Shown here one piece after another: positions 11,827 to 33,313 of a DNA stretch of 64,000 nucleotides; the first letter of the stretch is position 1, and each line of letters opens with the position of its first letter. The DNA is from Parvularcula bermudensis HTCC2503. Its GTDB lineage: Bacteria; Pseudomonadota; Alphaproteobacteria; Caulobacterales; Parvularculaceae. The notes below the pieces were generated by a model. That model ran no database searches and was not told the origin of the DNA. It saw nothing but the letters and a program-made list of their open reading frames with translations. Position numbers and translations under genes: made by a program. The stretch lies in the NCBI RefSeq assembly GCF_000152825.2, contig NC_014414.1, forward strand, positions 2,356,001-2,420,000, in the 5' to 3' direction.

Positions 11827-11879
11827 CTTCGCCTCCTTCACCCGGTCATTCCGGGCCGCCCCCTTGGCATAACGTGTCA

Positions 11880-11915
11880 CAAAATTATTATTCTTAGCCA
11901 AATAATCGTTATTTG
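11880..11915 (-). promoter_or_regulatory. AT-rich promoter region with inverted repeat upstream of the second RND operon
   Basis: This is a sharply AT-rich patch in GC-rich surroundings, 55-90 bases upstream of the adaptor GTG. It contains the inverted repeat ATTATT-N8-AATAAT (11887-11906). It probably holds the operon promoter and may be an operator. No -35/-10 pair is assigned. Confidence 0.35.
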
Positions 11916-12016
11916 CTGCCCTGGCACTGGCCTTGGCAAACCTTTTTCGGGGGGTCGTTCACAACAGCACAAGGAAACTAAGGCGATGCCGCGCGGCGTC
12001 GATATCGCCGCTCCGC

Positions 12017-14181: not shown

Positions 14182-14489
14182 GCAATAATCGCCTCTTCGT
14201 GTCCCAGTTGGCCCATGTCATCGCTGAAGTTAAGCATATCGCCCAGACCGACAACACCAAGGATCGCCCGGCAACGCGGCCGCCCGTGACGCTGGGGAGC
14301 GGGTGGACGTCATCACGCTCTAGTCGCTGACGTCCCCGCCCCCCTTTCCGGGGGACGCGGCGCTGCGGGTCGCACCGCCCTAGTCTGCTCAAAAGTGCTT
14401 AAGCCCCCTTCAACAGGAAAGGGCGACGCGAATACGCCGCGCCGCCCACTCACCGGTCACTAACGGGGATTAAGTGCCCGGCGAGATCC
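14182..14489. other. Intergenic region between the autotransporter and tauE
   Basis: This 308-bp stretch has no convincing gene. A 28-codon frame starting near 14240 on the minus strand (MLNFSDDMGQLGHEEA...) overlaps the tauE start and has no family resemblance. The right half probably holds the tauE-moa promoter; the left end holds the terminator at 14421. I looked for a molybdenum-cofactor riboswitch and could not convince myself of one. Confidence 0.6.
14421..14447 (-). terminator. Probable rho-independent terminator of the autotransporter gene
   Basis: On the minus strand this forms a ten-base-pair stem (one G-U pair) with a seven-base loop, followed by a short TTT run, about 45 bases after the autotransporter stop. 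Confidence 0.5.
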
Positions 14490-17400
14490 TCAAAAGCGTT
14501 GAGTGAAGGAAAGGCCCAAGCCAACACTGCTCACCGTGCCGAGCTGAGCCGACGAGTTCACCGACAAGCGGCCGCCGGGCCGGATCTCGGTGGTCAGCCC
14601 GCCTTCGAACTCGAACTGGCTCGATACCTCTTCGCCATTTGTTTCAAACGGCCCGTCAAAAGCCGTCGGCTCGGAGAAGCGCGATACAAACGTATGCTGC
14701 GTATCGCCGAAGTAATGCACGCCAGCCAAGCGGGCATGGGCGTTGAGCGTATCGGCAACGGCGTAGGACACTGTCGTACCGATCGCGATCTCGCCTCGTG
14801 TAAAGGATGCATCCTCAACCGAGAGGGCCGTCGCCTGGCCTTCACCGATCTCGAAGCCATCGATTTCCATCGATGAAACCCCGACGCCCACGAACGGATC
14901 AATCGAGAGATTGCCCTGCTTGTAAAGCGCGACCGAAAGCGCCGCTTGAGCATCGACACTACTGACGTCGCTCGATGCAGCCTGCTGGGTCAGCCGATCG
15001 CTGATCGGCTCGGCGGTCACCATGGTAAGGTTTTGCTCCCCCGTGGCGACGCCGACGAGGACGTTCAGATTACCGCTGGTGCCCAGCATGGTGACGGGCG
15101 CCTCCATCGACGCCGCAAGCTGGAACAGCTCACCATCCACATGGTCCGCAAGCGAGCTGTCTTGCTCGCCGTCGAACGAGGTGTAACCGACCGCAGCGCC
15201 AAGACGGACCGGTCCGGCCTGGTATCCAGACACCCCAAAGGCCAGGCGGTCTGCGTCGCCGCTGAAGCCTTGGAATTCGGGATCCTCGTCTTTGTCGAGG
15301 GAGAAGCGTTCCGCCGCTCCCCAGAGGTTGTGCTCACCGCTCACGGCGTCACGATTGTTCTGGCGCACGGCCGCCAGCAATGAGTCCTGTGCCGCAAGCA
15401 CCGTACGCGCACTAATATCGAGCGCCTCGGGGGTGAGCTGCGTGAGGGCGTCGTTCAACACGGCGGCATCATCGATCGCGCCGATCGCCGTGATGAGTGT
15501 GAGCAGATCATCGTTCACCTCATCGAGGGTGAGGGTCGTGATGAGAGCGTCACCGGCATTGGCGGCATTTTCAGCAAGGCCGTCAATGTCGGACGCTGCG
15601 GCAAGAAAAGTCCTGAGGATCAGGTCCGCATTTGCCTCGTCCAGGATCAGATCGTTCGAGATCAGAAGGCCATTCTCAAAGTCGACATCGACGAATGAGC
15701 CGCTGATGACGCCATTCGCATCGATAATGCGAACGTCATTGGCGCCGAAATTCAAGGATCCCGAGATATCGGTCTGTAATTGCCCATCAAGGACAACATC
15801 GCCCGCCGAAATGATCTGGTCGAAACCGGTATTGTCGATTTCGACGACAAAGACGCTGTTCGACCCAAAAGTGACATCGCCATCAACCGTGAGTGTCCCC
15901 GGTGAATTACCGACATTGAGAAGGCCGTCATTCACGAAATCACCGACGATCAGCGAACCGTCGCGCGCCGTAAAGCTCGTCCCAGCGGCCACCTCGACCA
16001 GGGCTGCTTCCAGCGTCCCGTCGAGGACGTTCGCCCCCGCATTGAAGCTCACCTGGGTGAGCCCTTGGTGCACCCCTTCAAGCGTGATGCCCTCGCCATT
16101 AAAGGTGAAGACCTCAAACTGCTGCAGGCTATCGTCGACGCCGCCGGAATTCACAAGGGTTCGTGCCGCCCCTGAGAAATTGACCGTGTCGTTACCATCG
16201 CCACCAAAAGCGGTGGTGAAGCTCCCGCCTTGGTCGTTGAACACATCGTCGCCGCCGAGGAAGAAAACGCGACCGTCCAGCGTGCCGCCCGCCTCAAGGG
16301 TAAGTGCCATGCTGGCATCGACGCTTCGGTCGATGACCGACCCTGCAGGGCCTGTCACGACGGCGCCGTTGCGCACGAATACCTCAGATCCCGCTACAGT
16401 CGTGACATCGATCCCCCAACTGGTGCGGCCGTCCACAAGGCCCGCGACATCGACAAATGTCGACCCGGTACCGTCATTGATCGCCGTGATGGCATCGACA
16501 TTATCAGTATTACCCTCCGCAGCCCCGATGACATCACCGGTGGCCACGATGCTGAGGTCACCATCGGTGCCTTGTCGCGCGAAGATGCCCTCGCCCGCAT
16601 CGCCGATGGCCGACCCACTCATCGTGATTGAGACATCAGTATTCGCGGGCGCTGGCGCCTCCGCTTCTGGATCAACCACCACCACTTGGCGATTGACATT
16701 CTCGACAAAGATGGCCTCGACACCACCCTCAATATCCCCAGAGATATCGAGAGTGACCTGTCCTTCGCCTTCATGGTTGGCGAAGACACCCACAAAGTCA
16801 CCTCTGACGCTGCCCGTTGTCGTCACCGAGATGTCACCGACCCCGGAATGCTCCGCTTCGATGCCCCGATCGCCGGCGGTCACAATGCCGTGCGCCTCGA
16901 CGCTGATATTGCCGATTTCGTCATGGTCGGCGTTGATGCCGTGCTGTCCAATCTCAGTACCGCCGGTCACATTGCCGTTCGCGATAATAAGGATGTCGCC
17001 ATTGTCGTTACCAAAGGCCTGGATTCCTTCATCGCCGCCAATCACGTCGCCATTGGTGATGATGGTTGTGTCACCCGCGCCGTTATTTTTGACGAAGATC
17101 GCGTCGCCCAGACCGCTGACAAGGCCATCCGTCACGATACGGACATTCCCGTCATCGAACACCTCCGCGTCTATGCCTCGGCTCTCGGCACTCGTGATAT
17201 CGCCACTCGTTGTGATGCTCAGATCCCCCTGACCAAATAGATTGGCGCTAATCGCGGTTTGCTCGGCGTCGATGTCCGCGGTCGAAATGGTGAGCGAACC
17301 ATTGGCAGCAGCGAGAACGCCAATAGTGCCGCTCAGTTCGCCCTGTGCATCGATGAAGGTGTCACCCGTTCCGAAATGGTTAACATCGAGGGCTATACCC

Positions 17401-19013
17401 TCGGAGGCCACGCGACCGAGGGTTTGAACGGATAGGTCTCCCTCGCCGCTCTGGTCAGCGAGGATACCGACATTCACCGCAAGGATACTCTCTGCACTGA
17501 TAGAGAGAGAGCCGCTTTCAAAGGACTGAGCCAAAATGCCGACATCACTCGCGGTAATCGGTCCCGTGGCGGTGATGGTGGTATCGCCCTGTCCCTCGTG
17601 GGTAGCATCGATCCCGATATCGCCGCTGATCGCGCCATCAGCGGCAATACTGATATCACCTAACCCGGCATGCTCCGCCTCGATGCCTGAACCAATATTA
17701 CTGCCGTCACTATCGCCGACAAGGTCTCCCTGGGCGGCAATAACAATATCACCGCTGGAGCTGATCGAGTTGATATTAGCCTCAATCGCATTGTCCGCAG
17801 CAGAAACAAGACCGGTCGTGGTAATCAGGACCGATCCATCACCGTTATGAGATCCTTCTACACCATCATTGTCGGCTGCAATGACATCAGCATTCGCTGT
17901 AAGAACGATGTCCCCCGTGCCATCGTGACTGGTCTCTATTCCATCCTGAGCCGCGTCAACAAGGGCATTGGTGATGACAACAATGTTCCCGGTCCCGTCG
18001 TGATCGACCTCGATCCCTTCGTTGCCGCCTTCAAGGAGTGTCCGGACAATATCGTTCGTTGTCACGACCACGTCGCCGACGCCGTTGTGGTCAATATCGA
18101 AACCGTCACCGCTCGTTGATGTCACCGCACCATTCGTCGTAATAATGATCGAGCCCGTGCCTTCGTGGTCGACGTCAAAAGCGTCACCCACTGATGTCAC
18201 CTCGCCATTGACGATGGCGGTAAAATCACCAACGCCGAGAAGCTGTGCACTGATCGCTTCTGCGTTACTGTTGTCGGCGACAACATCTTCCACGATGAGG
18301 GAAATATCGGATGTCGCATCGACATTTGTATCGATTTCGATCGCTGCACTCTCGGCATCGATCCCATTCGTGCTTATTGTTCCTGTCGAGACGAAATTGA
18401 CCGCTCCGCCCCCTTCGCTCGCCGTGATGACGACTGCCGATATGTCGTTATCCTCAGCAAGCGCACGAACGTCGGCAACGGAAGCGTTGATGGCGCCGGC
18501 GCCATTCTGCCCTATCACCAGGCCGGCTGTGTCCCCGGAAATTTCCCCTTCACTCACAAAGTCGATGCCGCCTTCGCCGCTATTTGAAAGGACGACGGCA
18601 ATGTCCTCGCCCAGAATTTGCGATCCAGCGTTCACCAGATCGAACGACTGACCGAGAGGGCCGGAACTATCTAACTGAACAGTGGTCTCGGTACTGAAAA
18701 AAATCGCTGGGAGTTCGGCATTGCCTGCTGTGACCGCCACATTGTCGACATCAATGAACAAGGCATCGATGACGGCATCAGAAAGGCAGGTAACATTGTC
18801 ACCAGGAGCGGCAATTGTGCCGATCGGACCATCGGACACACACTGAGCCGGGAGATTTTGGGCCGCTGCGCCCGGCACAATAACCCCGGGAAGCGCGGAA
18901 ATGATTGCCGTTGCGGAGGCAGCGAGAAGGAACCGATTAAGAGAAGGCGATCGCAGCCTATCTGCAGGTTGTCTGTTGCCGGATGCGGTGAAGGTGGAAG
19001 TAGTGATAGCCAT
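14490..19013 (-). CDS. Large autotransporter (type Va) with repetitive beta-helix passenger
   Basis: About 1,507 residues. The ATG at 19013 gives a long signal peptide ending near GAAAQN. The passenger is acidic, almost free of Lys, and built from degenerate repeats of about 30 residues of the form xHDGTGxIxVxTNxxVxAxxDGIE, as expected for stacked beta-helix rungs. A Gly/Asn-rich stretch and a GTLTVDGDVTFGSNSVFVVE segment precede a C-terminal beta-barrel of about 270 residues. The barrel begins around LWGAAERFSLD and ends in the aromatic terminus LSFTQRF, which BamA recognises. It is likely a surface-exposed adhesin. It is monocistronic, with its own terminator. An earlier ATG at 19085 lacks support. 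Confidence 0.9.
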   Translation of the reverse strand: MAITTSTFTASGNRQPADRLRSPSLNRFLLAASATAIISALPGVIVPGAAAQNLPAQCVSDGPIGTIAAPGDNVTCLSDAVIDALFIDVDNVAVTAGNAELPAIFFSTETTVQLDSSGPLGQSFDLVNAGSQILGEDIAVVLSNSGEGGIDFVSEGEISGDTAGLVIGQNGAGAINASVADVRALAEDNDISAVVITASEGGGAVNFVSTGTISTNGIDAESAAIEIDTNVDATSDISLIVEDVVADNSNAEAISAQLLGVGDFTAIVNGEVTSVGDAFDVDHEGTGSIIITTNGAVTSTSGDGFDIDHNGVGDVVVTTNDIVRTLLEGGNEGIEVDHDGTGNIVVITNALVDAAQDGIETSHDGTGDIVLTANADVIAADNDGVEGSHNGDGSVLITTTGLVSAADNAIEANINSISSSGDIVIAAQGDLVGDSDGSNIGSGIEAEHAGLGDISIAADGAISGDIGIDATHEGQGDTTITATGPITASDVGILAQSFESGSLSISAESILAVNVGILADQSGEGDLSVQTLGRVASEGIALDVNHFGTGDTFIDAQGELSGTIGVLAAANGSLTISTADIDAEQTAISANLFGQGDLSITTSGDITSAESRGIDAEVFDDGNVRIVTDGLVSGLGDAIFVKNNGAGDTTIITNGDVIGGDEGIQAFGNDNGDILIIANGNVTGGTEIGQHGINADHDEIGNISVEAHGIVTAGDRGIEAEHSGVGDISVTTTGSVRGDFVGVFANHEGEGQVTLDISGDIEGGVEAIFVENVNRQVVVVDPEAEAPAPANTDVSITMSGSAIGDAGEGIFARQGTDGDLSIVATGDVIGAAEGNTDNVDAITAINDGTGSTFVDVAGLVDGRTSWGIDVTTVAGSEVFVRNGAVVTGPAGSVIDRSVDASMALTLEAGGTLDGRVFFLGGDDVFNDQGGSFTTAFGGDGNDTVNFSGAARTLVNSGGVDDSLQQFEVFTFNGEGITLEGVHQGLTQVSFNAGANVLDGTLEAALVEVAAGTSFTARDGSLIVGDFVNDGLLNVGNSPGTLTVDGDVTFGSNSVFVVEIDNTGFDQIISAGDVVLDGQLQTDISGSLNFGANDVRIIDANGVISGSFVDVDFENGLLISNDLILDEANADLILRTFLAAASDIDGLAENAANAGDALITTLTLDEVNDDLLTLITAIGAIDDAAVLNDALTQLTPEALDISARTVLAAQDSLLAAVRQNNRDAVSGEHNLWGAAERFSLDKDEDPEFQGFSGDADRLAFGVSGYQAGPVRLGAAVGYTSFDGEQDSSLADHVDGELFQLAASMEAPVTMLGTSGNLNVLVGVATGEQNLTMVTAEPISDRLTQQAASSDVSSVDAQAALSVALYKQGNLSIDPFVGVGVSSMEIDGFEIGEGQATALSVEDASFTRGEIAIGTTVSYAVADTLNAHARLAGVHYFGDTQHTFVSRFSEPTAFDGPFETNGEEVSSQFEFEGGLTTEIRPGGRLSVNSSAQLGTVSSVGLGLSFTQRF

Positions 19014-20071: not shown

Positions 20072-21253
20072 TCACAAGCCGCAGCTTTCCCTCGCGGATA
20101 ACAACCCCGCACCATAGACCTCATCGTGACCCTCCTCTCCAAGATCGAGGGCTGTCTCCATCAGCGCGGCTGGAAGAATGGTTTCGGGATGCGCCGCCGA
20201 TCGCCAGCGCTCATCCGACGCTAATTGGGCGGTGACAAAGGGGACCGCAAACGATGTCCCCGTTCTGACCCTATACCCCCCTTTGAGGGGGATAGCGACG
20301 TCGACGCCGGGCGCCGCGATATCGATATGCGCCCCACGAACGGCTTTGCGATAGATCCGAAGATCGGCATCGACGGCGGTCACGGCAACAACCTGCCGAA
20401 AGGCGGCGGGATAGCGCGGATCGACTTTCGGTCCGTCATTGCCGGCCGCCGCGACGATCACCATCCCCTGGGCCGCCACGCGCTGAATGCCCCGGTCGAG
20501 GATTTTGTTATAGGGCCCCGCAAGACTGATATTAACGATGCGAACGCCTTCATCCGCCAACCAATCAAAGGCTTGCATGAGGTCATCCACGCCCGCCGCC
20601 TCAGTTTCGGAATCGGCATGGATGACGACGGCATTATAAAGGTCGACATCGCGCAACCTGCCCTCGCCAACAATCAGGGCCGCGAGGGCCGTGCCATGCG
20701 CTGTGGTGGGGGCGTTCGCCTGAGGCGTTTTCGCGCCGAAAGACGCCGCCCTAATCGTCGCGGACCAGTCTTCGGCCATCGTCGTGTCGATTGCCGTGTC
20801 GATGATTCCGACTTTGACGAATGCTCGGCAGCCTTCATGGGGCCACCCGATCACCCGCGCGGGAAAGCTCTCCCAGTCATCCGTGGCGGCCTGCAGACGG
20901 TAGGCATGATTGACGCCTGCGGAGGCCTCCGGCTCGATGCTTTCGACCTCGCGGATGGCAGCGCCGCCGGACATCCCTTCGGGAATGATCAGGGTCAGCA
21001 TGTAAAGGTTCAGCCCCGATAACGTCTCCTGCCCCCTTACACGGTAGCCACGGCGCTCAACCTCACGGCTCAGCGTTGTCAGTGCCGTTTGCGTATTGAC
21101 CAGCACAATCAATTCACGATCGTCGACCACATCATCCGCATGCGCCTCGACGACCGTCTGGGGCGGCAGGTCGAGGGAATAGGTCTCACAGGCTGGGAGG
21201 ACAGCCAGCGCAAGGAGGCCTGCAGCAACACCACTGATCATTTGCGGTTTCAT
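20072..21253 (-). CDS. Subtilisin-like (S8) serine protease lipoprotein
   Basis: A 393-residue subtilase. A lipoprotein signal ends at Cys22 (AVLPAC). Residues about 47-120 form a propeptide-like beta-alpha-beta domain. The catalytic domain carries Asp152 (VGIIDTAID), His186 (TAHGTALAAL), the oxyanion Asn272 (AAAGNDGP) and Ser334 (RTGTSFAVPFV), so the triad is complete. It should act in the periplasm or at an envelope face. It lies 46 bases downstream of the porin gene in one unit, next to a convergent ECF sigma/anti-sigma pair. That setting suggests a role in, or control by, envelope signalling; this is inference. Confidence 0.9.
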   Translation of the reverse strand: MKPQMISGVAAGLLALAVLPACETYSLDLPPQTVVEAHADDVVDDRELIVLVNTQTALTTLSREVERRGYRVRGQETLSGLNLYMLTLIIPEGMSGGAAIREVESIEPEASAGVNHAYRLQAATDDWESFPARVIGWPHEGCRAFVKVGIIDTAIDTTMAEDWSATIRAASFGAKTPQANAPTTAHGTALAALIVGEGRLRDVDLYNAVVIHADSETEAAGVDDLMQAFDWLADEGVRIVNISLAGPYNKILDRGIQRVAAQGMVIVAAAGNDGPKVDPRYPAAFRQVVAVTAVDADLRIYRKAVRGAHIDIAAPGVDVAIPLKGGYRVRTGTSFAVPFVTAQLASDERWRSAAHPETILPAALMETALDLGEEGHDEVYGAGLLSARESCGL

Positions 21254-21299
21254 CGCCTTTGTTCCTTCTCCCCCTTTGTCGGCCACCGGTCGAGAAAGT

Positions 21300-23181: not shown

Positions 23182-23733
23182 TTAGCCATGCGCCGTTTTA
23201 CCTGCCAAACAGTGCATAAGGAGCTTCTTGGCATGATGCAGACGGGTCTTGATCGTGCCGAGGGGGCAGGCCTCAATCTCGGCGATTTCATGGAGGGGCA
23301 GGTCACGGAAATAGGCGAGCTGTATCGCGGCACGGTGGTTTGGGCGTAACCTCTCAACGCATTCTCGCAGGTGGCGCGCATCCTCCAGGGTCGAGAGCAC
23401 GGTGTCCGGGCTCGGTGAGCCGTCGGGGATCGTCTCATCAGGCTCCGATAGGACCGTGCGTCCTGTACGCCGAAATCGGTCAATAGCCTTGTTCCGAGCA
23501 ATGCCGAACATCCAGGTCCGCGCTGAGGACCGTCCCTCAAACGTATCAGCGCGGCGCCAGATCTCCATCATCGTCTCCTGGAGGGCGTCTGCGGCTTCGT
23601 GGGCGTCGCGAAGACGGGTCTGGATAAATCGATGGATGTCGGGCCCATGTGTATCGTAAAGTACCCGCATCGCGTCCCGATCGCCCCCACCGATCCGCTT
23701 CAGCAACACCGCCGCTTCGTCGGTCTCAGGCAT
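23182..23733 (-). CDS. ECF-type RNA polymerase sigma factor
   Basis: A 183-residue sigma70-family group IV factor. Region 2 (VLYDTHGPDIHRFIQTRLRD through ARTWMFGIARNKAIDRFRR) and region 4 (LRPNHRAAIQLAYFRDLPL, then a helix-turn-helix ending CPLGTIKTRLHHAKKLL) are both complete. The likely anti-sigma factor is encoded tail to tail on the other strand. The divergent porin-protease unit is a candidate target. The start ATG has no strong Shine-Dalgarno. Confidence 0.92.
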   Translation of the reverse strand: MPETDEAAVLLKRIGGGDRDAMRVLYDTHGPDIHRFIQTRLRDAHEAADALQETMMEIWRRADTFEGRSSARTWMFGIARNKAIDRFRRTGRTVLSEPDETIPDGSPSPDTVLSTLEDARHLRECVERLRPNHRAAIQLAYFRDLPLHEIAEIEACPLGTIKTRLHHAKKLLMHCLAGKTAHG

Positions 23734-24469
23734 CAGATGTCACTCCACCCCTGAGCGTTTGCTCAGCTCGTCTGGCCCCGTTCCGCGCACTATAAGAGAA
23801 GTTCGATCTTTTGCAGCCCCCCAAAAGGGGCATTGAGGCTCGTGATGACGCGTGAGTGTACTCCCTCGGCGCGACGAATGCCGCGGGTCGCACCGCCGCT
23901 TCTGCTCCCGTCATCCGGCGCCTCGATGGGCACCCTGCCCACCGCTCAGTCCCCTATTAAGGGCGCCTGGGAATCTTTTCTATCGACCGAATGAAGGACG
24001 TAGATGACGATATTCTCATCCGACGATCAGAATACGCGCGCCCCCCTCCTCCCTCTCTTTCGAGACTCCTTCACACCGTCACGTCAGGCCGGGCGGAGGC
24101 TGAGAAGGTCCGACAGCCGCTTGAACGCATCGCCCGCCGTGCGGCGCCGGTGCGGGACCGGTTTATCGATCCATCTGACATCTCGGACGTACACCCCCCT
24201 CGTACTGGCCAACCGCCGGGATCAGTGTGCTAACATCTACCGAGCTGGTCTAAAATTTGGAGACGGACGAAGAGGCCAGCACGTATAATGTCTATGCGTC
24301 GACTGCTGGAACTTTTGGCCCACTTGGCGTGAATTTGCGGTTCCAGACCGAAGCAATCGGGGATGACAGCGAGGTAAGGCAAGCTGCGCATCGGACGGGG
24401 TGATAATGGTCGCCGAGGGCCCGGCCCAGCGTACCGAGCCGATCCTGTCGCGCTGTTTCTCTGGTGTTT
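23734..24469. other. Gene-poor region between the ECF sigma gene and the island
   Basis: These 736 bases contain no supported gene. The right part of the sigma promoter lies here. Frames of 62-94 codons are Arg/Pro-rich and look non-coding. One plus-strand stretch, about 24263-24403, reads ETDEEASTYNVYASTAGT... with protein-like composition but lacks a start codon, and could be a decayed fragment. Confidence 0.5.
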
Positions 24470-24516
24470 TGGTACCGCCTCCCCGGTTCGAACGGGGGAC
24501 CTCTTGATCCACAATC
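24470..24516 (-). repeat. Duplicated 3' end of tRNA-His (island att site, distal end)
   Basis: These 47 bases are identical to 33237-33283: the CCA end, T-arm, variable loop and anticodon arm of tRNA-His down to the anticodon loop. Both copies are in the same orientation, and identity stops abruptly at both ends. A truncated tRNA 3' end downstream of an intact tRNA gene is the usual scar of site-specific integration by a tyrosine recombinase. Confidence 0.9.
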
Positions 24517-24915
24517 GAAATTCAGGCGTTGCAGTACGCCGTCTACAAACCGTCCGATCCACCTAACCCATTGGTCTCCACTACGGTCGTTGATGGAAAG
24601 GATGGAAGGCCTTGGCTATCGGTTTGCTTCCGCTGTGCGCTATATGCGCGCTAAATTTCTGCTCGACCGGCACGCTTCGAAACGAGCACGATCGCGATCG
24701 TCCGCTTTGGGGCGATGGCGGTCGGGGCCTCAGGCCAAAAGAGACCGTCTACGATGTGACCCCGCCGCCCATCACGCTTCGATGTAACTGCTGCTCAAGC
24801 TACCTAGGGTCCACCACGGCTGCGAGATTCAATGAAAGCGCCTAACTGGTGTAGGGCCCAACTGATGACCGTTCGGACACAGGGAATGGAGCGTCAACTG
24901 AAACCCGGACGCAGC
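24517..24915. other. Gene-poor left end of the island
   Basis: There are 399 bases inside the distal att site with only short, unconvincing frames. This is a usual position for an integrase or cargo remnant, but I could not find recombinase motifs on either strand. Confidence 0.5.
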
Positions 24916-25302
24916 TCAATTCCCGATCGCTGGGCCCGTCTTCTGAAATCGCAAAAACGCCAGGATCAGGACGGCAGAACCAGTCACCTCCACGGCGATC
25001 ATGTTCAGCGGCAGTGATGCGCCGTGGAATTGCCAGGCAAAGATCCGCCCCAGCATCGCGATGGCGATGAGCGAAAGCGCCGGCAACAGCCAAACCCGCT
25101 TGCCCGTCAAAAGCGCTACCACCATGCATCCGCCCAAGACGAGGAAGAACGAGGCGAGATCGCCGATCTGCGTACTGAGTCCAGCATCACTCAGCAGCAT
25201 CATATCGAACTGTGTACTTACGGTCTCCGGCACGATCCACCAGCCAAGTCCCACAAGAAGGAACGAGGCGCCGTACGCGCCGACCAGGATCTTCAAGAGC
25301 AT
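24916..25302 (-). CDS. Small four-TM membrane protein, DUF4345-like
   Basis: A 128-residue protein with four hydrophobic segments (about 3-24, 47-66, 70-90 and 97-118), short loops and a C-terminal basic tail. The spacing resembles DUF4345 proteins, whose function is unknown. It is the last gene of the sulfatase island unit, 48 bases after the outer-membrane protein stop. It has no recognisable catalytic motif. Confidence 0.55.
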   Translation of the reverse strand: MLLKILVGAYGASFLLVGLGWWIVPETVSTQFDMMLLSDAGLSTQIGDLASFFLVLGGCMVVALLTGKRVWLLPALSLIAIAMLGRIFAWQFHGASLPLNMIAVEVTGSAVLILAFLRFQKTGPAIGN

Positions 25303-25350
25303 CGTTATTGCTGAAAGCCTCCGCCAATCGTTTGACGATCCGGGTCCGCC

Positions 25351-26097
25351 TTAGAAAGGCGTTTGCAGACCCAAGACAGGACCGGACAGTTTGGCGTCGA
25401 CATCGGTGGGTCCGAACTCGCGCTCAATCGACAGCTCGCGATAGCCGCCGAGCACAGACCACCTATCGTTGATCCGATATCCGACCCCGCCAAAAGCCTG
25501 CCAGGTTAAGTCGGCAGAGTCGCCTATACCAAAGCCGCCAACTTCTCCGAACGCCACGCCGTACAGCTTTGGACCGTAGTTGCGGTGCAACCGGGCGGCG
25601 ATCACGAGATCCACCCACCCCCCATCGTCTGTATAGGACGCACTTGGGGTGTCGCTGAGGCCAACTAGCCGGGTCTCGATGGCCGCGTCGGTGTACCGGG
25701 CACCGCTGCCAAGCTCGAACCGCGTGTTGGGGCCGTCGATGACGGCGTAGGACGTATAGGCGCTCAGCATGGTGACCCGGCTCTCAACTTTCACCAGCGA
25801 AAACATACCGCCAAGCGGTGATGCGTCCTCAGTCTCGAGATCCGCGAAGAGGAGGTCTGCGGTGAGGGACCACCGACCGTTTCGGGCGTCGATCGCGCCG
25901 AAAAAGGCCATATCGAGCGAGTCCACGATATCGCCGAAGTCGGCGTCAGCTTCGATCTCACCGAGGGGTATTTCGACTGTCGTGGAGGCGCCAGGGAACC
26001 AGGCGTAGAACGTGGTCATCACGTCCCAGTCGTTTTGGGAGAAGGCGGGGGTGGGGAAAGCAATAGCAAGTAACAAAAGTACCCGTTTAATCAACAT
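25351..26097 (-). CDS. Outer-membrane beta-barrel protein
   Basis: The ATG at 26097 has GGAGG about nine bases upstream and opens a clean signal peptide (MLIKRVLLLLAIAFPTPAFS, cleaved near SQ). The mature part of about 228 residues alternates hydrophobic and polar residues, with strands such as WSVLGGYRELSIEREF, and ends in an aromatic Phe (LGLQTPF), as in small outer-membrane barrels. The frame is open to 26139 but without support. In the sulfatase island it could let substrate into the periplasm; that is inference. Confidence 0.65.
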   Translation of the reverse strand: MLIKRVLLLLAIAFPTPAFSQNDWDVMTTFYAWFPGASTTVEIPLGEIEADADFGDIVDSLDMAFFGAIDARNGRWSLTADLLFADLETEDASPLGGMFSLVKVESRVTMLSAYTSYAVIDGPNTRFELGSGARYTDAAIETRLVGLSDTPSASYTDDGGWVDLVIAARLHRNYGPKLYGVAFGEVGGFGIGDSADLTWQAFGGVGYRINDRWSVLGGYRELSIEREFGPTDVDAKLSGPVLGLQTPF

Positions 26098-26340
26098 TAC
26101 GAAAGCCCTCCGTAAAAAGAGTTCAGAGTTGAGATACATAACACGTCAGCTTCTTCACAGTGCAGCGGCGACTGGCTTCAAGATCGATCCGTTTAATGAC
26201 CACCGAGTTGTCGCACGATCATCGGTGCCCCGACCGTCCCTCACTGACGTTCTCGTTACGCGCTTGAAGTGAGCGCCTTCACTTCCTTTTCCTCAATCGT
26301 CTGTTGTTGAGAAAGCTCAGCCCGGGCCAAAGACTATTCA

Positions 26341-27267
26341 TCACTGACCAACCACAAGACCGGCACGGTCGCTATCCAACGGCCTATCTCGAACGATCCG
26401 GAATCCGAGATGGGCCGTACTAAAATCGGGCTCAAAAGCCTCTCGAGCCGCAGCGCGATAGCGGCGACAATAGTTTTTGCTACACAGGAATGAGCCGCCT
26501 TTGATCGTGAACCGCGGCGTGCCTGCGGCAAAGGGACTATCGGTCCATTCCCAGACATTCCCGATCATATCGTAGGCCCCGATGCGGCCTGGCCGGTAGC
26601 AGCCGACGGGCGCCGTGCCGATGAACCCGTCCTCGGCGGAGTTGATGAGGGGGAAGATCCCTGTCCAGACATTGGCACGGGCTTCGCCATTGGGACCACG
26701 CATCCCTGAGTCCGGATCATTCGGATCGAAAAGGCCAAGGCTGGCCGCGTATTCCCATTCGACCTCGGTCGGCAGGCGCCCGCCTACCCATTCAGCATAG
26801 GCGTGCGCATCGGCCAATGAGATGTGTACCACCGGATGCAGCGCGAGACCATCAAGCGTCGACCCCTCACCGCCTGGTGTTCGCCAACTGGCTTCAGGAT
26901 CAAGGCGCCACCACGACATCGGGTTCTGGGGTGTTACGGTGGTGCGGAACTGCGCTGAGCCGCCATTTCGCTCCGCGTCCGTGATATAGCCAGTTGCTTC
27001 GACGAACCGCGCAAACTGACTGTTTGTAACTTCATGGACCTGCAGCTCAAACGGCGAGACGAAAACCCGCTCCGGCCGTCCCTCTTCCGGATAGACCGGA
27101 TCAGCCGCTTTGACGAACCCACCGCCCGGCACCTCGATGAAACCTCCGAGTTCGTTCGACGTGAGACAGGAGGGCGGCGACGGCGGCATCACCCGCGGCC
27201 AAAAGGTAATAGCCGCAACAGCTAACAAGCCAGCGCCGCCGATCAGGAGGCCGGTGCGTCTGTTCAT
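26341..27267 (-). CDS. Formylglycine-generating enzyme (SUMF1/FGE family)
   Basis: A 308-residue protein with an N-terminal hydrophobic anchor (residues 6-23) followed by the complete FGE fold: FIEVPGGGFVKA, EVTNSQFARFVEATGY, GGRLPTEVEWEYAA, AYDMIGNVWEWT and HLGFRIVR. The active-site segment KGGSFLCSKNYCRRYR keeps both cysteines (Cys262 and Cys267), matching Cys336 and Cys341 of human SUMF1. It should therefore be a true oxidase converting the sulfatase Cys to formylglycine rather than a cysteine-less FGE-like domain. It belongs to the same unit as the Cys-type arylsulfatase. The anchor suggests the catalytic domain is periplasmic. Confidence 0.9.
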   Translation of the reverse strand: MNRRTGLLIGGAGLLAVAAITFWPRVMPPSPPSCLTSNELGGFIEVPGGGFVKAADPVYPEEGRPERVFVSPFELQVHEVTNSQFARFVEATGYITDAERNGGSAQFRTTVTPQNPMSWWRLDPEASWRTPGGEGSTLDGLALHPVVHISLADAHAYAEWVGGRLPTEVEWEYAASLGLFDPNDPDSGMRGPNGEARANVWTGIFPLINSAEDGFIGTAPVGCYRPGRIGAYDMIGNVWEWTDSPFAAGTPRFTIKGGSFLCSKNYCRRYRAAAREAFEPDFSTAHLGFRIVRDRPLDSDRAGLVVGQ

Positions 27268-27316
27268 GGTCGGGAGCCTAAGGTTCTACGTTTCTGCATT
27301 TAGGGCAATGAGACAA

Positions 27317-27826
27317 TCATTGGACAGTGTATTTCAATGTGGCGAGCGCAATGCCAAGACTGCCCACCGACACCGCGCCTATCACCGGGTGCCACGCATC
27401 GCGGCTGACGACCCAGCCGACACGCGCGCCAAGCGTCACCAGGAGGAGGACGCAGAAGGCTTGCGAGAGGGAGAACGCGACGGTTGCGGGCAGCCATCCC
27501 AAACCCACCGCGACGAACAGAGCCGTCGGCACATTTACGACACTGATCATCGATTGACCGCCGGACCAGGCAGCACAGATCGCGGTGACCGTCAGCACCC
27601 GCTCCCCGGTTTCGACCGCATGGGACAGGAGAACCGCAAGTCCCCTCGCGAGAGTCATGGCGAGGACGGAACCAAACAGGATGAGGGCCGGCCGAAACGG
27701 CGCGTCTGACCGAAACTCCAGTGCCATCAAGACACTGAGGACCATGATCGCGCCGTATATCAGGCCGAAGGATGCCTTCTCGAACGTCTTCCAGGCGAGA
27801 TGGGGCAAGAAGGTAGGTGCCCTCAT
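27317..27826 (-). CDS. Polytopic membrane protein of unknown function
   Basis: A 169-residue protein with about five hydrophobic segments (near residues 20-37, 45-66, 77-90, 98-128 and 145-165). I do not recognise the family. It lies between the DJ-1-like and FGE genes in the island unit, with gaps of about 50 bases on both sides, which argues for co-expression with the sulfatase system. GGGGA lies upstream of the ATG at workable spacing. Confidence 0.6.
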   Translation of the reverse strand: MRAPTFLPHLAWKTFEKASFGLIYGAIMVLSVLMALEFRSDAPFRPALILFGSVLAMTLARGLAVLLSHAVETGERVLTVTAICAAWSGGQSMISVVNVPTALFVAVGLGWLPATVAFSLSQAFCVLLLVTLGARVGWVVSRDAWHPVIGAVSVGSLGIALATLKYTVQ

Positions 27827-27872
27827 TGCTCATCAGTCCCCGCCGGTTCGCCTGTTTCGTCTGTTCAGCATA

Positions 27873-28706
27873 TTATCGATTGCTCTCGGTCGCCATCTTT
27901 TCGAGGATCCGATGTGCCGTCTCGTAGCCACTATTTTGATTTTGGCCGGTGATGATGTTGCGATCGATCGAGGTATGGGTCGTGAACGGATCGAACCAGG
28001 CGTGCTGACATTCAAAAAGGGCCCCCGCTTTGACAAGCTCTTCCTCCGGGTGCTTCGGCGTGACGGCAATACCGAAGCTATTGATCTGATTGTTGGTCAC
28101 GCCAGTCACGCGGCGCCCTTTGACAAGAAGCTCCCCGTCGAGCCCCTTCGCTGAGACCAGACCCAGCGCACCGTGACAGACGGAGCCCAGGATCTTGCCC
28201 GACGCATTCGCTTTCGTGACCAGCTCAGCCAACACGTCACTCTGCGCGAGATCGTAGGCGGCGCCCCATCCGCCAGCCATGAAGATCACGTCGTAGTCGT
28301 CGGGATCGATCTCCGCCACCGGCTTGGAGTTTTTCAGCTTTTTCATCGCCGCAGCGTCCGCCATGAACCGCTTATCCTCCGCACACGCGAGCGGCCACGA
28401 CCAGGAGGGCGGCTGTATCGGAATTTCTCCGCCCTTGATCGACGCCATATCGACATCCAGTCCCGCGTCGATGAAGGCATAATAGGGCACCGTGAATTCA
28501 GACCCAAAGGCGCCGGTCTTGCGGGGCGTCGGATCAAGCTTGTTATGGCTGGTGCAGATGACGAGGGCGCGCCGGCCTTTCAGATCGAAGGGCGGGACCG
28601 TGTAGTGCCGGTGCAGCCCCAAGGCCTGAAGGAGGCGAGGAAGAAGGAAGTAGGTCGCCACCGCGAGGATCAGCAGAGACACGAGGATAATGAAAAACAA
28701 TTGCAT
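27873..28706 (-). CDS. Membrane-anchored DJ-1/PfpI (Hsp31-like) protein
   Basis: A 277-residue protein. Residues 2-24 form an N-terminal TM anchor. The remainder is a DJ-1/PfpI domain of the Hsp31 type: DDYDVIFMAGGWGAAYDLAQ, then the nucleophile elbow GSVCHGALGLVS with Cys177-His178. The family includes chaperones, glyoxalases and amidases. An anchored form inside a sulfatase operon is unusual, and its substrate cannot be inferred. It starts 50 bases after the sulfatase stop. Confidence 0.8.
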   Translation of the reverse strand: MQLFFIILVSLLILAVATYFLLPRLLQALGLHRHYTVPPFDLKGRRALVICTSHNKLDPTPRKTGAFGSEFTVPYYAFIDAGLDVDMASIKGGEIPIQPPSWSWPLACAEDKRFMADAAAMKKLKNSKPVAEIDPDDYDVIFMAGGWGAAYDLAQSDVLAELVTKANASGKILGSVCHGALGLVSAKGLDGELLVKGRRVTGVTNNQINSFGIAVTPKHPEEELVKAGALFECQHAWFDPFTTHTSIDRNIITGQNQNSGYETAHRILEKMATESNR

Positions 28707-28756
28707 TGAATGGCCCTTTCAACAGCGATGCGGCAGTGATCTGATCGACGGAGAGG

Positions 28757-30523
28757 TCAGGCGCTGCGACCCCGCAGCCACTGACGCCCAAACTTGAGTC
28801 CGAAGACCCCAGCTGCGGCGATGACGAGGAGAAAGCCCACCATATGCGGCCAGTATTTGTGGATCACTTTCGAGGTGAGATTGGTGGCCAGCACTTCAAT
28901 GGCGTACTCGCCCGGCCCCACCTCATAGACACCCACGTCCTCTGCATAGGAACGATATTCCGCCAGCATATCCTCGAAGAGTGCCGGGTTCTCCCCTGAC
29001 AGATCGATGGTTTCGCCCGGATCCACGGACAGATCGTAAAGGCGCCATTGCGCATCACCCAGCGGCGGAGTGTTGCGGGTGATCTTCCATTTGCCGCGAT
29101 AGAGGGCCGCATTGCCGCTCACCTCAAACGCGAAACTTTCATCATCCGTATAGGTAATATCTGTCTGGCCTGAGAGCATCGGCAGCACGCTCCGCCCATA
29201 GAACTGAGCTGGGTCGTAAGAAACGTCAGCCACGTCGAGTATTGTCGGCACCAGATCCGCCACGTGAACAGGCGCGTGCTCGACGCCAGAAGCGGGAATG
29301 CCCGGACCAGCCACGACCATCGGGACGCGCAGGCCGCCCTCGCTGCCATAGAACTTATACAGATCGAAGGGAGCGGAGAGTACGGACGCCCATTCGGGGC
29401 CGACCGCTGTCACGCTTTTCCGCTGCCCCAGATTCTCGAAGGAGGTGTCGAAACCCTCCATCCATTGCACAATGCTAAGGCCGACACCCGCGATGCCGTC
29501 GAGGCTCGTCTGGCCAGACTCCGCGCCGTTATCAGACAGCACCATGACGATGGTGTTCTCAAGCTGGCCCGTTGCCTCCAGATGGTCGAGGAGGCGGCCA
29601 ATGTGATAGTCGGCAGCCTCCATCATGCCGGCATTCACCTGCATTTCGCGGGCCGAAACAGCTTTTTCCTCCGCTGACAGATCGTCCCATGCCCGATGGA
29701 TCTCTGGCACCTCCGCCAACGTGGTGGTCGGCGGCACAAGGCCACGGTCAATCAGGCGGCGCAGGCGTTGCTCCCGCATCTCATCCCACCCGGCCTCAAA
29801 GACGCCGTCATAGCGGTCGACATACTCGCGCGGTGCCTGGATCGGCATATGTGCCGCCTGTAGCGAAAGATAGCCGAAGAACGGCCGATCCGGGTCGCCT
29901 TGATCGACATACTCGATCATCTTGTCGACCAAGGTCTTTGACGAATAATAGTCGTCCGGGAGCGTCGTCGGCTCTCCGTCCTCGAACCATTCGACCGAGT
30001 GGGAACCGGGCAGGTAAGGCTTAGCGTCGTAATTACCGCCGCCGGTGGCATCCATAACGAAGGAGCGCTGAAAGCCGAACTTGCTTGGAAGGTTCGCGCC
30101 GATTTCACCGATGCCCCATTTCCCGCTAACATAGGTCTGGTAACCGGCGTCAGACAGTATGGTGCCGATTGTCTCTTGATCGGGCGCCCATCGCATCGAA
30201 TAGCCGGGGGCTGATCGCATATCCTTCGTCACCGTCTCCACCAGCGTCCCCATGCCGACTTGGTGGTTGTCCATCCCCGTCATCAGCATGGCGCGCGTCG
30301 GCCCGCAAAACGGCGACGTATAGTACCGAGACAGAATGATCCCGCGCTCCGCAAGCTCGTCGATCCGGGCCGTGCGCGCATCCGCACCATAGGCGCCAAA
30401 CCCGCTGAAACCCACATCATCGAACAGCACAAGGAGGATGTTGGGCCGATCATCCTGCGCATAGGCTGGTACCATGCCGAACGCCGAGACCGCCAACGCG
30501 GTGATGGTGACCAGTTTCCGCAT
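28757..30523 (-). CDS. Arylsulfatase, Cys-type, with C-terminal membrane anchor
   Basis: A 588-residue S1-family sulfatase. The signal peptide is MRKLVTITALAVSAFGMVPAYA. The N-terminal metal site RPNILLVLFDDVGFSGFGAY is followed by the formylglycine signature SPFCGPTRAMLMTG with Cys73, and then the second signature YQTYVSGKWGIGE. The residue to be oxidised is Cys, so an FGE is needed, and one is encoded three genes downstream. Near the C-terminus a hydrophobic helix (VGFLLVIAAAGVFGL) and a basic tail would anchor it in the inner membrane. The ATG at 30523 is preferred over 30541 for its GGAG and its signal peptide. The natural sulfate ester is unknown. Confidence 0.92.
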   Translation of the reverse strand: MRKLVTITALAVSAFGMVPAYAQDDRPNILLVLFDDVGFSGFGAYGADARTARIDELAERGIILSRYYTSPFCGPTRAMLMTGMDNHQVGMGTLVETVTKDMRSAPGYSMRWAPDQETIGTILSDAGYQTYVSGKWGIGEIGANLPSKFGFQRSFVMDATGGGNYDAKPYLPGSHSVEWFEDGEPTTLPDDYYSSKTLVDKMIEYVDQGDPDRPFFGYLSLQAAHMPIQAPREYVDRYDGVFEAGWDEMREQRLRRLIDRGLVPPTTTLAEVPEIHRAWDDLSAEEKAVSAREMQVNAGMMEAADYHIGRLLDHLEATGQLENTIVMVLSDNGAESGQTSLDGIAGVGLSIVQWMEGFDTSFENLGQRKSVTAVGPEWASVLSAPFDLYKFYGSEGGLRVPMVVAGPGIPASGVEHAPVHVADLVPTILDVADVSYDPAQFYGRSVLPMLSGQTDITYTDDESFAFEVSGNAALYRGKWKITRNTPPLGDAQWRLYDLSVDPGETIDLSGENPALFEDMLAEYRSYAEDVGVYEVGPGEYAIEVLATNLTSKVIHKYWPHMVGFLLVIAAAGVFGLKFGRQWLRGRSA

Positions 30524-30579
30524 CTCTCCAGTTCCTCTCATCCTAGGTGAAATATCAGCTTGGGTAATGCGCCCTGATC

Positions 30580-31554
30580 TCAGAACGCAGCGGGATCAGT
30601 ACCATCGCGCCAGACGAGAACGTCCGTATTGGGATTGAGGTCCTCGTTCGGGTCCGTCAGGCCACCTGCCGCGAAAGACACCCGCACCGGCGTGCCTCGC
30701 GTGTCGAGACAAAGCAGGTGGTTGTTGTCCCCATCGGTGAGGTCGGCAAGGGCGAAGGGCGTGACTTCACGCTCCCCGCCTTCAGGAAGGGCGATGGTCA
30801 CCTTGTACATCTCCCGTTCGAGGTCGCCGGGTTCCGCGCCGCCGGGCTTGGTCACCCCACCCGCCCAGGTCGCGCGCACGACTTGCTCGGTGTCGATCGG
30901 GCACCGGCTGCCGCCGCCCCAGACGAGCGACGTGGCCTTCTGGCCCAGTCCCCATTGAGCGGGCGGGACAATTTCGGCCCAGACAAGGGTGGGCCCGGGT
31001 TCGAGCGGGATGGCGTCGACGCTAGCGCCTTTGAAGTTGATGGTGTTGTCGAGGGAGAGGACGTTTCCGACGATTTCCACTATCACCGGAGGGTCTTCCG
31101 CACTCCCATATTCGCCTGCCAGCAAGGCGGTCCGCAACTCACCCGGATCATCCGCAGGCGCCAGCGTCAGGCAGGCAACGTGACCAATTTTGCCAGACGC
31201 CGTGGTCACGCGGAAATCACCTGGTTCGAGCGTTGTCTGGTCGACTTCATGGGAGAAGATCACCGGCATCCCGTCGGCGCCGCCTGCCCCTTCACACGCG
31301 ACGCGGTCCGTCCGCCCCGCGGGCAACGCATTGTCCAATCCGAAGAAGGCGGAGAGGAGCTTCGCCTCTCGCCCATCGCTGTGGCGAGTGTTGGAAACGT
31401 CCGTTGCCGTCGTGTCTTCCTGAGCATAGGCGTCGAGCGTGCGCTCATACCGGGCGATGCCGGTTGCCATGGTGAGCGTTTCGCAGCCCACGAGGCTCGA
31501 GGCCCCAACGATCAATAGCGCGGCCTTCGCCCTAACGCTTGAACAAGTGACCAT
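30580..31554 (-). CDS. Lipoprotein of unknown function
   Basis: A 324-residue protein. The N-terminal signal ends in the lipobox ASSLVGC, predicting a lipid-anchored periplasmic protein. The mature part is beta-rich, has several cysteines and includes paired segments ending VACLTLAPADD and HLLCLDTRGTP. I recognise no family. GGGAG is about nine bases upstream of the ATG. It is the first intact gene of the sulfatase unit, 56 bases before the sulfatase start, so a role as a substrate-binding or sulfatase-associated lipoprotein is plausible but unproven. Confidence 0.65.
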   Translation of the reverse strand: MVTCSSVRAKAALLIVGASSLVGCETLTMATGIARYERTLDAYAQEDTTATDVSNTRHSDGREAKLLSAFFGLDNALPAGRTDRVACEGAGGADGMPVIFSHEVDQTTLEPGDFRVTTASGKIGHVACLTLAPADDPGELRTALLAGEYGSAEDPPVIVEIVGNVLSLDNTINFKGASVDAIPLEPGPTLVWAEIVPPAQWGLGQKATSLVWGGGSRCPIDTEQVVRATWAGGVTKPGGAEPGDLEREMYKVTIALPEGGEREVTPFALADLTDGDNNHLLCLDTRGTPVRVSFAAGGLTDPNEDLNPNTDVLVWRDGTDPAAF

Positions 31555-31722
31555 ATCTTCAGCTCCCCAACTGAGACTGGCAGCTATAGCTACCCGCTGC
31601 GTTCCCGCGATCGTGCCGTAGTCAAACCTTTAACGATAGCGCAGGGCTCCGTGCGACGCGCTTATATCATTCCCCTAGTAGGCTGCGGAAAACGGATGCA
31701 GTAGCTCCAGTGCGGCCAAAAA

Positions 31723-32803
31723 CTATTCATTTTTGACCTCCGTTCTTTGGAGGGCAGCCGCGTCGCGGAACGCGCGAGGGGTCATGCCGGTCCATCTCCT
31801 GAAGCTCCGGGAGAAATTCGATGGCGTATCGTACAAGGTCTTGTGCGATCAGACTAATAGGGTGCGAGCTTCTGCCGAGCAGCTCTTGGGCGCGTCGCTG
31901 GCGAATCTCATCGACCAAACGCCGAAAGGAGGTCCCAGCCATTTCCAGTTGGCGACGCAGTCCGCGCTCTGAGTATCCCAAGGCAGCCGCCGTCTCGCCC
32001 AGAGACCGGGAGAGATTATCGCCCTCTTCCAGAAAGCGCAGCACGCGTTTCGCCGGCGTCTCATCACTTCCGATTGACGTGACCAAGTCTTCGCATAATG
32101 CGAGCAGATGGGGGTGATTGATCGGATCGGCACCGGGGAGCGGCTGGCTCAGGAGAGCTTGCGGAAAGAATAGTCTGTCCTCGTTACATTCAAAGGAAAT
32201 CGGGAAGCCGATATCAATGGCAATCGTCTCCCATCCGTCAGGTTGACGCGCCCTCGTCTCTGCCCTGCACACGACGGAATGGGTACGAAGCATTCTATTG
32301 AGTAGGTTCGCCGAACCGATCAGGGCACTGATATTAGCGCCAAAGCCAGCATTCTCGAGAGCCGCGGTTGACCGCAAGCAGATCGCGACCTCATCACGAC
32401 ATTGCGGCGCGTCTTCCTCCGGCAAGGTGAACTCGATTGCCGAAAAAATGAGGGAGAAGAAGCGCTGCATCACCCGCAGGCCTTCGACGAAAGACGGCGC
32501 GCTCATGGCCGCGAAGGCCGGAAGACCGATATATTGTGCGTCGAACCGCTGAGCGAGGCGTAAGCTAAGGTGAGGATCGCCGGTCAGCGCCACGGCATTG
32601 TGCATCAAGCGGCCAAGCACCTGGTACTCGATGCGAGCCTTCCCGTCGTCAAACGCCTCGGCCGTCAGTCCCGTCCCCGCCAGCAGCGCCTCAGCATGAT
32701 GTCCGTCCTGTCTCAACGTCCGGAAGACGAAGCCGGGGTAAGTGATGGGACACGACGGCCCGCTCTCCGTGGGCACTGCTCGTTCCATTTCTACACCCTG
32801 CAT
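31723..32803 (-). pseudogene. AraC-family regulator with a frameshift in the DNA-binding domain
   Basis: The N-terminal part (arabinose-binding/OruR-like, about residues 25-230) and the first helix-turn-helix (LGETAAALGYSERGLRRQL) are normal. Near 31831-31837 the frame breaks. In the encoded frame the second helix-turn-helix becomes LVRYAIEFLPELQEMDRH. In the next frame it reads YDTPSNFSRSFRRWTGMTPR, the exact consensus end of the family, then runs to a stop at 31723-31725. A loss of two bases (or a gain of one) at the CTTG-TAC point explains this. The unshifted frame ends at 31727. It is either a broken regulator or a sequencing error. It lies upstream of the sulfatase unit. Confidence 0.85.
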
Positions 32804-33236
32804 TTGTCGTTGGCGGTGGCACTAGAATACCCGAATTGGTCGCTACGGGAAGCAGCCCTCAGTCGGCATTGCAAGGGGGCAGTCAACTTGACCGGTATGG
32901 TGGGTCTGCCCGTTCGCGCTTTGTTAAGGGAACGGACTGGTTGGGCGCGTTGCGAGGCTGAGGCTCATGAATGCTTTTGCCTCGGCCGGCTGGCTTGCGC
33001 CGCAAAGAAGCAATCGCTTGGGAAGAAGGTATCTTAGGGGCGGTCGCGCCAGCCCCTTGGCTTCCGTCAGGCTTCAGAGCGCACTCAATGATCAAGAGGT
33101 CCAAGCCTGCCGATTCGATGGACCGAGATTGCCAATATTGGCGATCAGTGCTGCAATTCCGAGAACATTGCGCGAAATGTGTGCGCTAGTTTCTCCGCGG
33201 CCACATTCAAAATTCGCTGTAAGTAATTGAGTTTGC
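32804..33236. other. Gene-poor stretch between tRNA-His and the AraC gene
   Basis: These 433 bases lie just inside the proximal att site, where an integrase gene is normally found. Only short frames (up to about 87 codons) occur, none with recombinase motifs. The AraC promoter must lie at the left end. Confidence 0.5.
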
Positions 33237-33313
33237 TGGTACCGCCTCCCCGGTTCGAACGGGGGACCTCTTGATCCACAATCAAGCGCTCTAACCGACT
33301 GAGCTAAGGCGGC
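33237..33313 (-). tRNA. tRNA-His (GTG), intact, CCA encoded
   Basis: This folds as a complete cloverleaf: acceptor GCCGCCT with AGGCGGT, D-stem GCTC/GAGC, anticodon stem CTTGA/TCAAG around loop TTGTGGA (anticodon GTG), T-stem CCCCG/CGGGG, discriminator A73 and encoded CCA. The 1-72 pair is G-U. A73 with U72 is the unusual histidine identity set described for many alphaproteobacteria. Its 3' 47 bases are repeated at 24470-24516, marking it as the integration site of the sulfatase island. Confidence 0.95.

Follow-up and report, generated by a model that had tools for sequence, protein, structure and literature searches.

Formylglycine-generating enzymes (FGEs) convert a cysteine into formylglycine with O2, and those studied in bacteria are, to our knowledge, cytosolic. 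Elements that insert at RNA genes also bear on the locus reported here. In one account, cis-mobilizable elements (CIMEs) keep the copies of their attachment (att) sites while integration and transfer genes are absent (PMC5704250). Another source describes the vcr islands of Dehalococcoides at ssrA, with a 20-bp repeat of the tmRNA gene and, in 16 of these islands, a serine-recombinase integration module (PMC3146451).

In this report we analysed one stretch of 64,000 nucleotides (nt), hereafter the window, which covers positions 2,356,001-2,420,000 of the single-contig, closed genome (2,902,643 bases) of Parvularcula bermudensis HTCC2503. Between the gene for tRNA-His and a displaced copy of its 3' part, the window holds a sulfatase gene, an FGE gene and six others, and the account that we consider probable is that an element of about 8.8 kb entered tRNA-His carrying a conserved sulfatase/FGE module, whose sulfatase would be matured after export. 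The predicted exported FGE is the most interesting feature of the locus and the conserved gene set is interesting as well, whereas the insertion, at a tRNA gene, is ordinary in kind.

A sulfatase gene and an FGE gene between copies of the tRNA-His 3' end

The intact tRNA-His (gtg; 33237-33313, minus strand) is the single tRNA that ARAGORN finds in the window. Its positions 31-77, which start on the 5' side of the anticodon and run to CCA, where the identity ends, recur at 24470-24516, also on the minus strand; the two att-like copies (24470-24516 and 33237-33283) are identical at 47 of 47 nt and form a direct repeat with starts 8,767 nt apart, just as an earlier note on this DNA had stated. 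A repeat that runs from the anticodon region to CCA is a usual form of att site. When the genome was searched with 251 bases around tRNA-His, one copy was found besides the gene itself (E 9.4e-18), the other two matches being only 75% and 81% identical. Because there is a single extra copy in 2,902,643 bases, we exclude that the repeat is a chance match or a dispersed one, and dispersal of the 47-mer was what the earlier note had named as speaking against an island. Separately, a 13-nt piece of the anticodon-stem region of tRNA-His (GATCAAGAGGTCC) lies inverted at 33090-33102, about 140 nt past the 3' end of the tRNA.

Eight open reading frames (ORFs), all on the minus strand, lie between the repeat copies, encoding in order of reading an AraC-type regulator, a lipoprotein-like protein, the sulfatase, a DJ-1/PfpI-family protein, a five-helix membrane protein, the FGE, a barrel-like protein and a small membrane protein. 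Of the seven junctions between neighbouring ORFs, five have gaps of 38-50 nt and the remaining two measure 172 and 201 nt. The co-oriented set that the earlier note placed between the repeats is thus there, yet about 400 nt at each end hold no recognised gene.

The sulfatase (28757-30541, minus strand; PF00884, 6e-57) has Pseudomonas aeruginosa AtsA/PAS (1hdh) as its best solved match over residues 31-540 (2.4e-108), and C79 occupies the position of the catalytic residue. This cysteine stands in C-G-P-T-R, an instance of the C-x-P-x-R motif of Cys-type S1 sulfatases, and is invariant in 17/17 aligned relatives, which bears out the claim of a Cys-type arylsulfatase. The protein carries hydrophobic segments at residues 10-28, as a signal sequence, and 567-585, and such segments are present at both ends in all 17 aligned sulfatases, with a 19-residue mean of 1.31-2.22 at the N-terminus and of 1.92-2.81 at the C-terminus, where positive residues come next. 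Because both ends are hydrophobic and positive residues follow the C-terminal segment, we predict that the sulfatase is exported, with a periplasmic catalytic domain held by a C-terminal anchor.

The FGE (26341-27267, minus strand; PF03781, 6.2e-59; Thermomonospora curvata FGE 6s07, 9.2e-59) is catalytically complete, as had been claimed: C262 and C267 are invariant in 11/11 sequences and align with both cysteines of the same motif in 6s07. Residues 5-23 are hydrophobic, and an N-terminal segment scores 1.31-2.62 in 9/11 FGEs; the other two, from Asticcacaulis sp. AC402 and Aquisalinus flavus, were missed by the motif, with the segment visible in the alignment, and the starts of several FGEs are mechanical first-start choices. 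With this predicted N-terminal anchor the FGE would lie outside the cytoplasm, and it may mature the anchored sulfatase after export. Among open-licence papers we found none on a post-export FGE pathway in bacteria.

Sulfatase-FGE loci of other Alphaproteobacteria, together with locus L118, served as a comparison. There, 8/8 FGEs begin hydrophobically (1.14-2.31), six of them lipobox-like by eye, and the C-terminal segment reaches at least 1.57 in 8/9 sulfatase ORFs. Since these loci share both traits with the module, the pairing of an exported FGE with an anchored sulfatase seems to be more widespread among these bacteria. They differ from the module in having a second sulfatase nearby and in lacking the set of AraC-type regulator, DJ-1 protein, five-helix protein and lipoprotein. 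Hydrophobic-start FGEs stand beside C-terminally anchored sulfatases in L090, L091, L093, L094, L098, L099, L100 and L118.

The gene set, its other members and its possible role

The module is real, uncommon and conserved, and it is not peculiar to the tRNA-His island. One search of genome contigs with the sulfatase gave 19 loci (L101-L119), and other genes of the set lie near the sulfatase in 15 of them (L101-L115, sulfatases 52-74% identical); the remaining four (L116-L119) have sulfatases that are 30-45% identical and lack the rest of the set, apart from the FGE in L118. The search for the same eight-gene order that the earlier note had proposed found it whole in Asticcacaulis sp. AC402 (L101), where a DSBA-family gene separates lipoprotein and sulfatase, and in part in L102-L115. 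Aquisalinus flavus (L102) has seven genes in order and the lipoprotein after them, and partial sets occur in Aquisalinus, Roseibium, Sphingomonadales and metagenome-assembled genomes (MAGs) labelled Armatimonadota and Verrucomicrobiota. In 10/15 loci the regulator is followed by the sulfatase and then by DJ-1, whether directly or with other genes in between; the five-helix protein is present in 8/15, and relatives of the lipoprotein in 13/15, plus a partial copy in L108. Some loci are cut by contig ends, so that all per-gene counts are lower bounds. A second DJ-1 gene is found in L102, L103, L107 and L109, and two sulfatases in Roseibium hamelinense (L109). A short-chain dehydrogenase follows the sulfatase in L109 by scan (8.1e-38), and in L113 and L114 by eye. 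The earlier note had called the set unrecognised and perhaps undescribed; the same set exists in other genomes, and no paper on it was found among open-licence papers, steroid sulfates and DUF4345 with sulfatases included.

Closer to home the module is scarce. An order fixed in all relatives, with the tRNA fragment absent, was what the earlier note had held would count against an island, and the order is not fixed in this way. Module-type DJ-1 (E at most 1e-60) occurs in 3/62 genomes of the family Parvularculaceae (those of the window, G033 and G445, of which G445 corresponds to L115 by its coordinates) and in 1/10 of the genus, and the nine congeners have no sulfatase match above 46% identity among the matches listed. 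Among 385 genomes drawn from the class, one, that of the window, has a match to the five-helix profile and three (that of the window, G150 and G114) have one to the lipoprotein profile, in a scan that scored at most nine and five candidates per genome, respectively, so that misses are possible. Plasmid records match DJ-1 (684 records) and the sulfatase (623), all below 60% identity. A tRNA is present in 3/19 of the loci L101-L119 (L104, L111 and L115), and no copies of tRNA ends were found in L111 and L115. In L104 the regulator lies directly behind tRNA-Glu (7703-7779), and a stretch beyond the module at 21097-21115 that agrees at 17/19 positions with the end of this tRNA and its flank (E 0.018) is a lead only.

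The sulfatase tree (17 rows) places the window as sister to Asticcacaulis (100/99), and the two are joined by Parvularcula sp. BBD 1991-13 and Aquisalinus in a four-member group (97/96). MAGs labelled Armatimonadota (two), Verrucomicrobiota (one) and unplaced (one) form one group (100/99) that joins Sphingomonadales (89/92), which suggests transfer between distant lineages, although the MAG labels may be wrong. The window's nearest neighbour is a different one in the other trees, Parvularcula sp. BBD 1991-13 for the FGE and Aquisalinus for DJ-1 and the lipoprotein, and parts of the module may have been exchanged between loci. The earlier idea that enzyme and maturase would be gained together fits these observations.

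The other members of the set are less readily named. The regulator (31727-32803, minus strand) matches PF12625 (3.3e-25), and its HTH_18 match (PF12833, 5.8e-07) is below the Pfam cut-off (30.2 against 33.6 bits). The lipoprotein-like protein (30580-31554, minus strand) has no Pfam family and a beta-rich model, mostly strands (predicted local distance difference test, pLDDT, 71.7), for which a fold search returned antibody-like and S-layer beta domains at template-modelling scores of 0.13-0.27 of the query among 50 listed, an uninformative result. The DJ-1/PfpI-family protein (27873-28706, minus strand; PF01965, 9e-16) has an N-terminal membrane helix (hydrophobic segment 3-21) and C177 and H178, the C-H pair of a nucleophile elbow, invariant in 17/17 aligned rows. 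The five-helix protein (27317-27826, minus strand) has no Pfam match above cut-off, and a fold search with its five-helix model (pLDDT 57.2) gave no match at E < 1; GDT1 (E 0.019) and VIT1 (E 1.1; 0.29 for a relative) were dropped as identities, all scores being below the cut-offs. The barrel and DUF4345-like labels of the earlier note correspond to weak matches, both below Pfam cut-offs. The first is an outer-membrane beta-barrel-like protein (25351-26139, minus strand; PF13505, 6.7e-05, 23.6 against 28.7 bits). The second is a small membrane protein (24916-25302, minus strand) that is DUF4345-like at best (PF14248, E 0.18) and falls short of membership (12.2 against 26.5 bits); it has 41-50% identical relatives in 5/15 module loci (L101, L102, L113, L114 and L115), and a true DUF4345 protein (5.9e-22) follows the FGE in Roseibium L107. 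Scans for promoters (1 site against 2.5 in shuffles) and terminators (12 against 8.2) were uninformative.

What the module acts on can be approached through its neighbours elsewhere, in a scan that covered selected genes in some loci only. In L113 two adjacent acyl-CoA dehydrogenases occur along with an AMP-binding ligase, an SBF-family symporter, a DSBA-family protein and a GST-like protein. L110 encodes a long-chain acyl-CoA synthetase as well as an acyl-CoA dehydrogenase and a nitronate-monooxygenase-family protein, and in L114 a thiolase and a FadB-like protein are found. By this association in 3/15 loci we lean towards a hydrophobic sulfate ester as substrate. Pfam scans recognise no transporter in the gene set, and chemistry of known families is found for the sulfatase and FGE only; the sulfate-ester acquisition system of the earlier note is therefore no more than a possibility. 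A broader proposal can be made only tentatively, at somewhat less than even chances: an uncommon, self-sufficient envelope module, moved between distant lineages, in which a tethered sulfatase would be matured after export by its own anchored FGE, with the lipoprotein, DJ-1 and five-helix proteins as partners, and would act on sulfated amphiphiles. A little less probable still is a non-nutritional role, in which a sulfated compound, or a sulfated molecule on the cell's own surface, is remodelled or detoxified. The absence of a recognised transporter, the membrane segments of three of the proteins and the several members without a family would suit such a role, and the acyl-CoA ligase, dehydrogenase, thiolase or FadB-like genes nearby in L110, L113 and L114 look more like catabolism, yet these are common genes in other organisms.

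Probable integration at tRNA-His

A second copy of the tRNA-His 3' part is present in 3/10 genomes of the genus, the window's included, by a search with the window's own tRNA-His that copies of more divergent tRNAs could escape. In congener G003 the second copy (tRNA positions 33-83) lies 15.7 kb from the intact gene, and a tyrosine integrase with an arm-binding domain follows the intact tRNA-His directly (PF00589, 1e-11; PHROG integrase, 1.1e-47). This element (L089, G003:C18:28001-48000, 1733-17450) is bounded by an exact 51-nt repeat and encodes a Prim-Pol protein and an Eco57I-type methylase, along with a weak, below-cut-off terminase-like match; a tRNA-Asp stands just past its far end. 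In congener G009 a 92% identical copy of 49 nt lies 86.6 kb from tRNA-His in the same orientation (G009:C2:1101440-1188134; L067, L079), with a shared stretch of 19 nt, 18 of them identical, near the tRNA and near the copy, and perhaps marks a large integrated element. Upstream of tRNA-His genes are conserved in the genus, an M48 gene lying at most 1.4 kb away in 8/8 congeners with an orthologue. Downstream, an all-against-all comparison of predicted proteins from eight genomes gave two weak cross-matches only, one ABC-transporter-like (32-37%, G006 with G008) and one at 31-32% (G000 with G005), and this asymmetry fits an insertion hotspot at tRNA-His. The host genome has eight integrase-family matches elsewhere, and four of the eight short loci hold tRNA genes (Arg; Thr and Tyr; Asp; Gly), none of them His. 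The same-site element in a congener, the patchy occurrence and the presence of the module elsewhere make integration at tRNA-His likely. The reading of the 47-nt copy as the scar of a tRNA-targeted integration accordingly has indirect support, from the G003 element and from patchiness, and the direct junction of tRNA-His to the left flank was not seen in seven congeners.

The lack of such a junction in these congeners is the first of several points that weigh against our account. The ORFs of the window of at least 100 amino acids were compared with tRNA-His stretches of 20 kb (one of 16 kb) from seven congeners, reaching 12-18 kb downstream, G001 and G007 being omitted, both on short contigs and G007 also lacking an M48 orthologue, and the left flank of the island was found downstream of tRNA-His in 0/7; apart from matches to the tRNA itself and to genes of the right flank, there were only weak paralogues (26% and 35%). 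Second, no integrase was found in the interval by Pfam scan, PHROG scan or tblastn of three non-coding stretches, where the best hit (E 0.28 over 14 amino acids) amounts to nothing, against a thin control of five proteins from eight integrase loci (L124 and L126 probably in the wrong frame) plus the G003 integrase. The two terminal stretches without a recognised gene fit this result, the distal one (24517-24915, 399 nt), which is single copy in the genome, having no notable PHROG or integrase match, and the one between regulator and tRNA-His (32804-33236, 433 nt) no integrase-like stretch. Third, there is no compositional anomaly, G+C per kb inside the interval (0.576-0.627) equalling that of the surroundings and third-position G+C that of the flanks; such an anomaly is common in islands but not required. 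Because it lacks an integrase the interval is not classed as an intact integrative element, and because it also lacks an anomaly it is at best a CIME-like remnant or cargo mobilised in trans. Fourth, M48 is only 56-69% identical across the genus, and because the genus is this divergent the variability downstream may be general loss of synteny. Fifth, the FGE is found in 10/15 module loci and was not found in the other five, and strict co-inheritance, or movement as one unit, is unsupported because nearest neighbours differ between gene trees. Finally, all topology comes from hydropathy alone, and the N-terminal helix of DJ-1, present in 17/17 (1.77-3.29), has flanking charges that fit either side of the membrane for the domain.

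The absence of integrase and phage genes also opens the way to an unlikely history in which the repeat records the past integration of another or larger element, the module having already been beside tRNA-His or having come later by homologous recombination. The distances between copies in G003 (15.7 kb) and G009 (86.6 kb) do show other sizes at the site, but here the eight genes, all belonging to a set seen elsewhere, take up the whole interval except for about 400 nt at either end. That the module is ancestral and was lost in relatives, the 47-nt copy being an unrelated partial duplication of tRNA-His, is very improbable: host-like G+C and the module's presence in two other family members, Aquisalinus and Parvularcula sp. 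BBD 1991-13, would agree with it, but the DJ-1 marker is absent from 59/62 family genomes, the flanks examined in those two members have no tRNA-His or M48/short-chain dehydrogenase neighbours, and the copy is shaped like an att site, as in G003, where an integrase accompanies it.

Outside the interval, one of five small window ORFs compared with PHROGs has a weak match of unassigned function (E 0.015; 24004-24288). The left flank also includes an extracytoplasmic function (ECF) sigma factor (23182-23733; best congener match 48%) and, by eye, a subtilisin-type protease (20072-21286).

Proposed history and comparison with described systems

In the account of integration followed by maturation after export, an element of about 8.8 kb would have entered tRNA-His by recombination within the part that reaches from the anticodon region to the 3' end, the tRNA being rebuilt from the element's own copy of the 3' part and the original part displaced to 24470-24516. 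The element, now without integrase, would be a cis-mobilizable-type remnant or have been mobilised in trans, and its cargo would be the conserved, scattered gene module, with the AraC-type regulator ahead of co-directional genes that may form one operon. The sulfatase is predicted to be exported and held by its C-terminal helix with the catalytic domain in the periplasm, where the FGE, on the same side of the membrane through its N-terminal helix, may oxidise C79 to formylglycine with O2. The active enzyme might then remove sulfate from a small, perhaps hydrophobic sulfate ester, and it can be guessed that the lipoprotein and barrel act as envelope partners and that the anchored DJ-1 protein handles a reactive product. 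If this is true, enzyme and maturase travel together and a Cys-type sulfatase could work at once in a new host, and for the anchored DJ-1, lipoprotein and five-helix proteins a functional context would be available for the first time.

With tRNA-targeted islands and CIMEs the interval shares an intact tRNA at one end, an exact copy of its 3' part at the other, a cargo, and the absence of integration and transfer genes beside retained att-like copies, the combination that defines a CIME; it differs in that no empty site was seen and no parent element with this cargo is known. Like the vcr islands, it has a catabolic cargo that lies between an RNA gene and a direct copy of that gene's 3' end, and it differs in that the repeat is 47 nt of tRNA-His and no recombinase is present.

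The closest parallels of the enzymes show where the module departs from what has been described. The sulfatase aligns over its catalytic domain with P. aeruginosa AtsA/PAS, which one source assigns to family S1_4 (PMC5066984), and adds a predicted signal sequence before it and a predicted membrane segment behind. A plasmid-borne formylglycine sulfatase is described with likely maturases on other replicons (PMC11500405). Bacterial OCTINs are reported to have an FGE domain and, in Gram-negatives, signal sequences but to lack the catalytic cysteines (PMC5915273), unlike the FGEs of the module, in which these are present. With bona fide FGEs (T. curvata 6s07, Streptomyces coelicolor, human SUMF1) the module FGE shares the whole domain and both cysteines, and it differs in its predicted N-terminal anchor. 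The conserved N-terminal hydrophobic segments of such FGEs make formylglycine formation outside the Gram-negative cytoplasm a testable claim. Maturation in the bacteria studied is, as far as is known, cytosolic, and a post-export pathway of this kind would be comparable to that of the eukaryotic endoplasmic reticulum.

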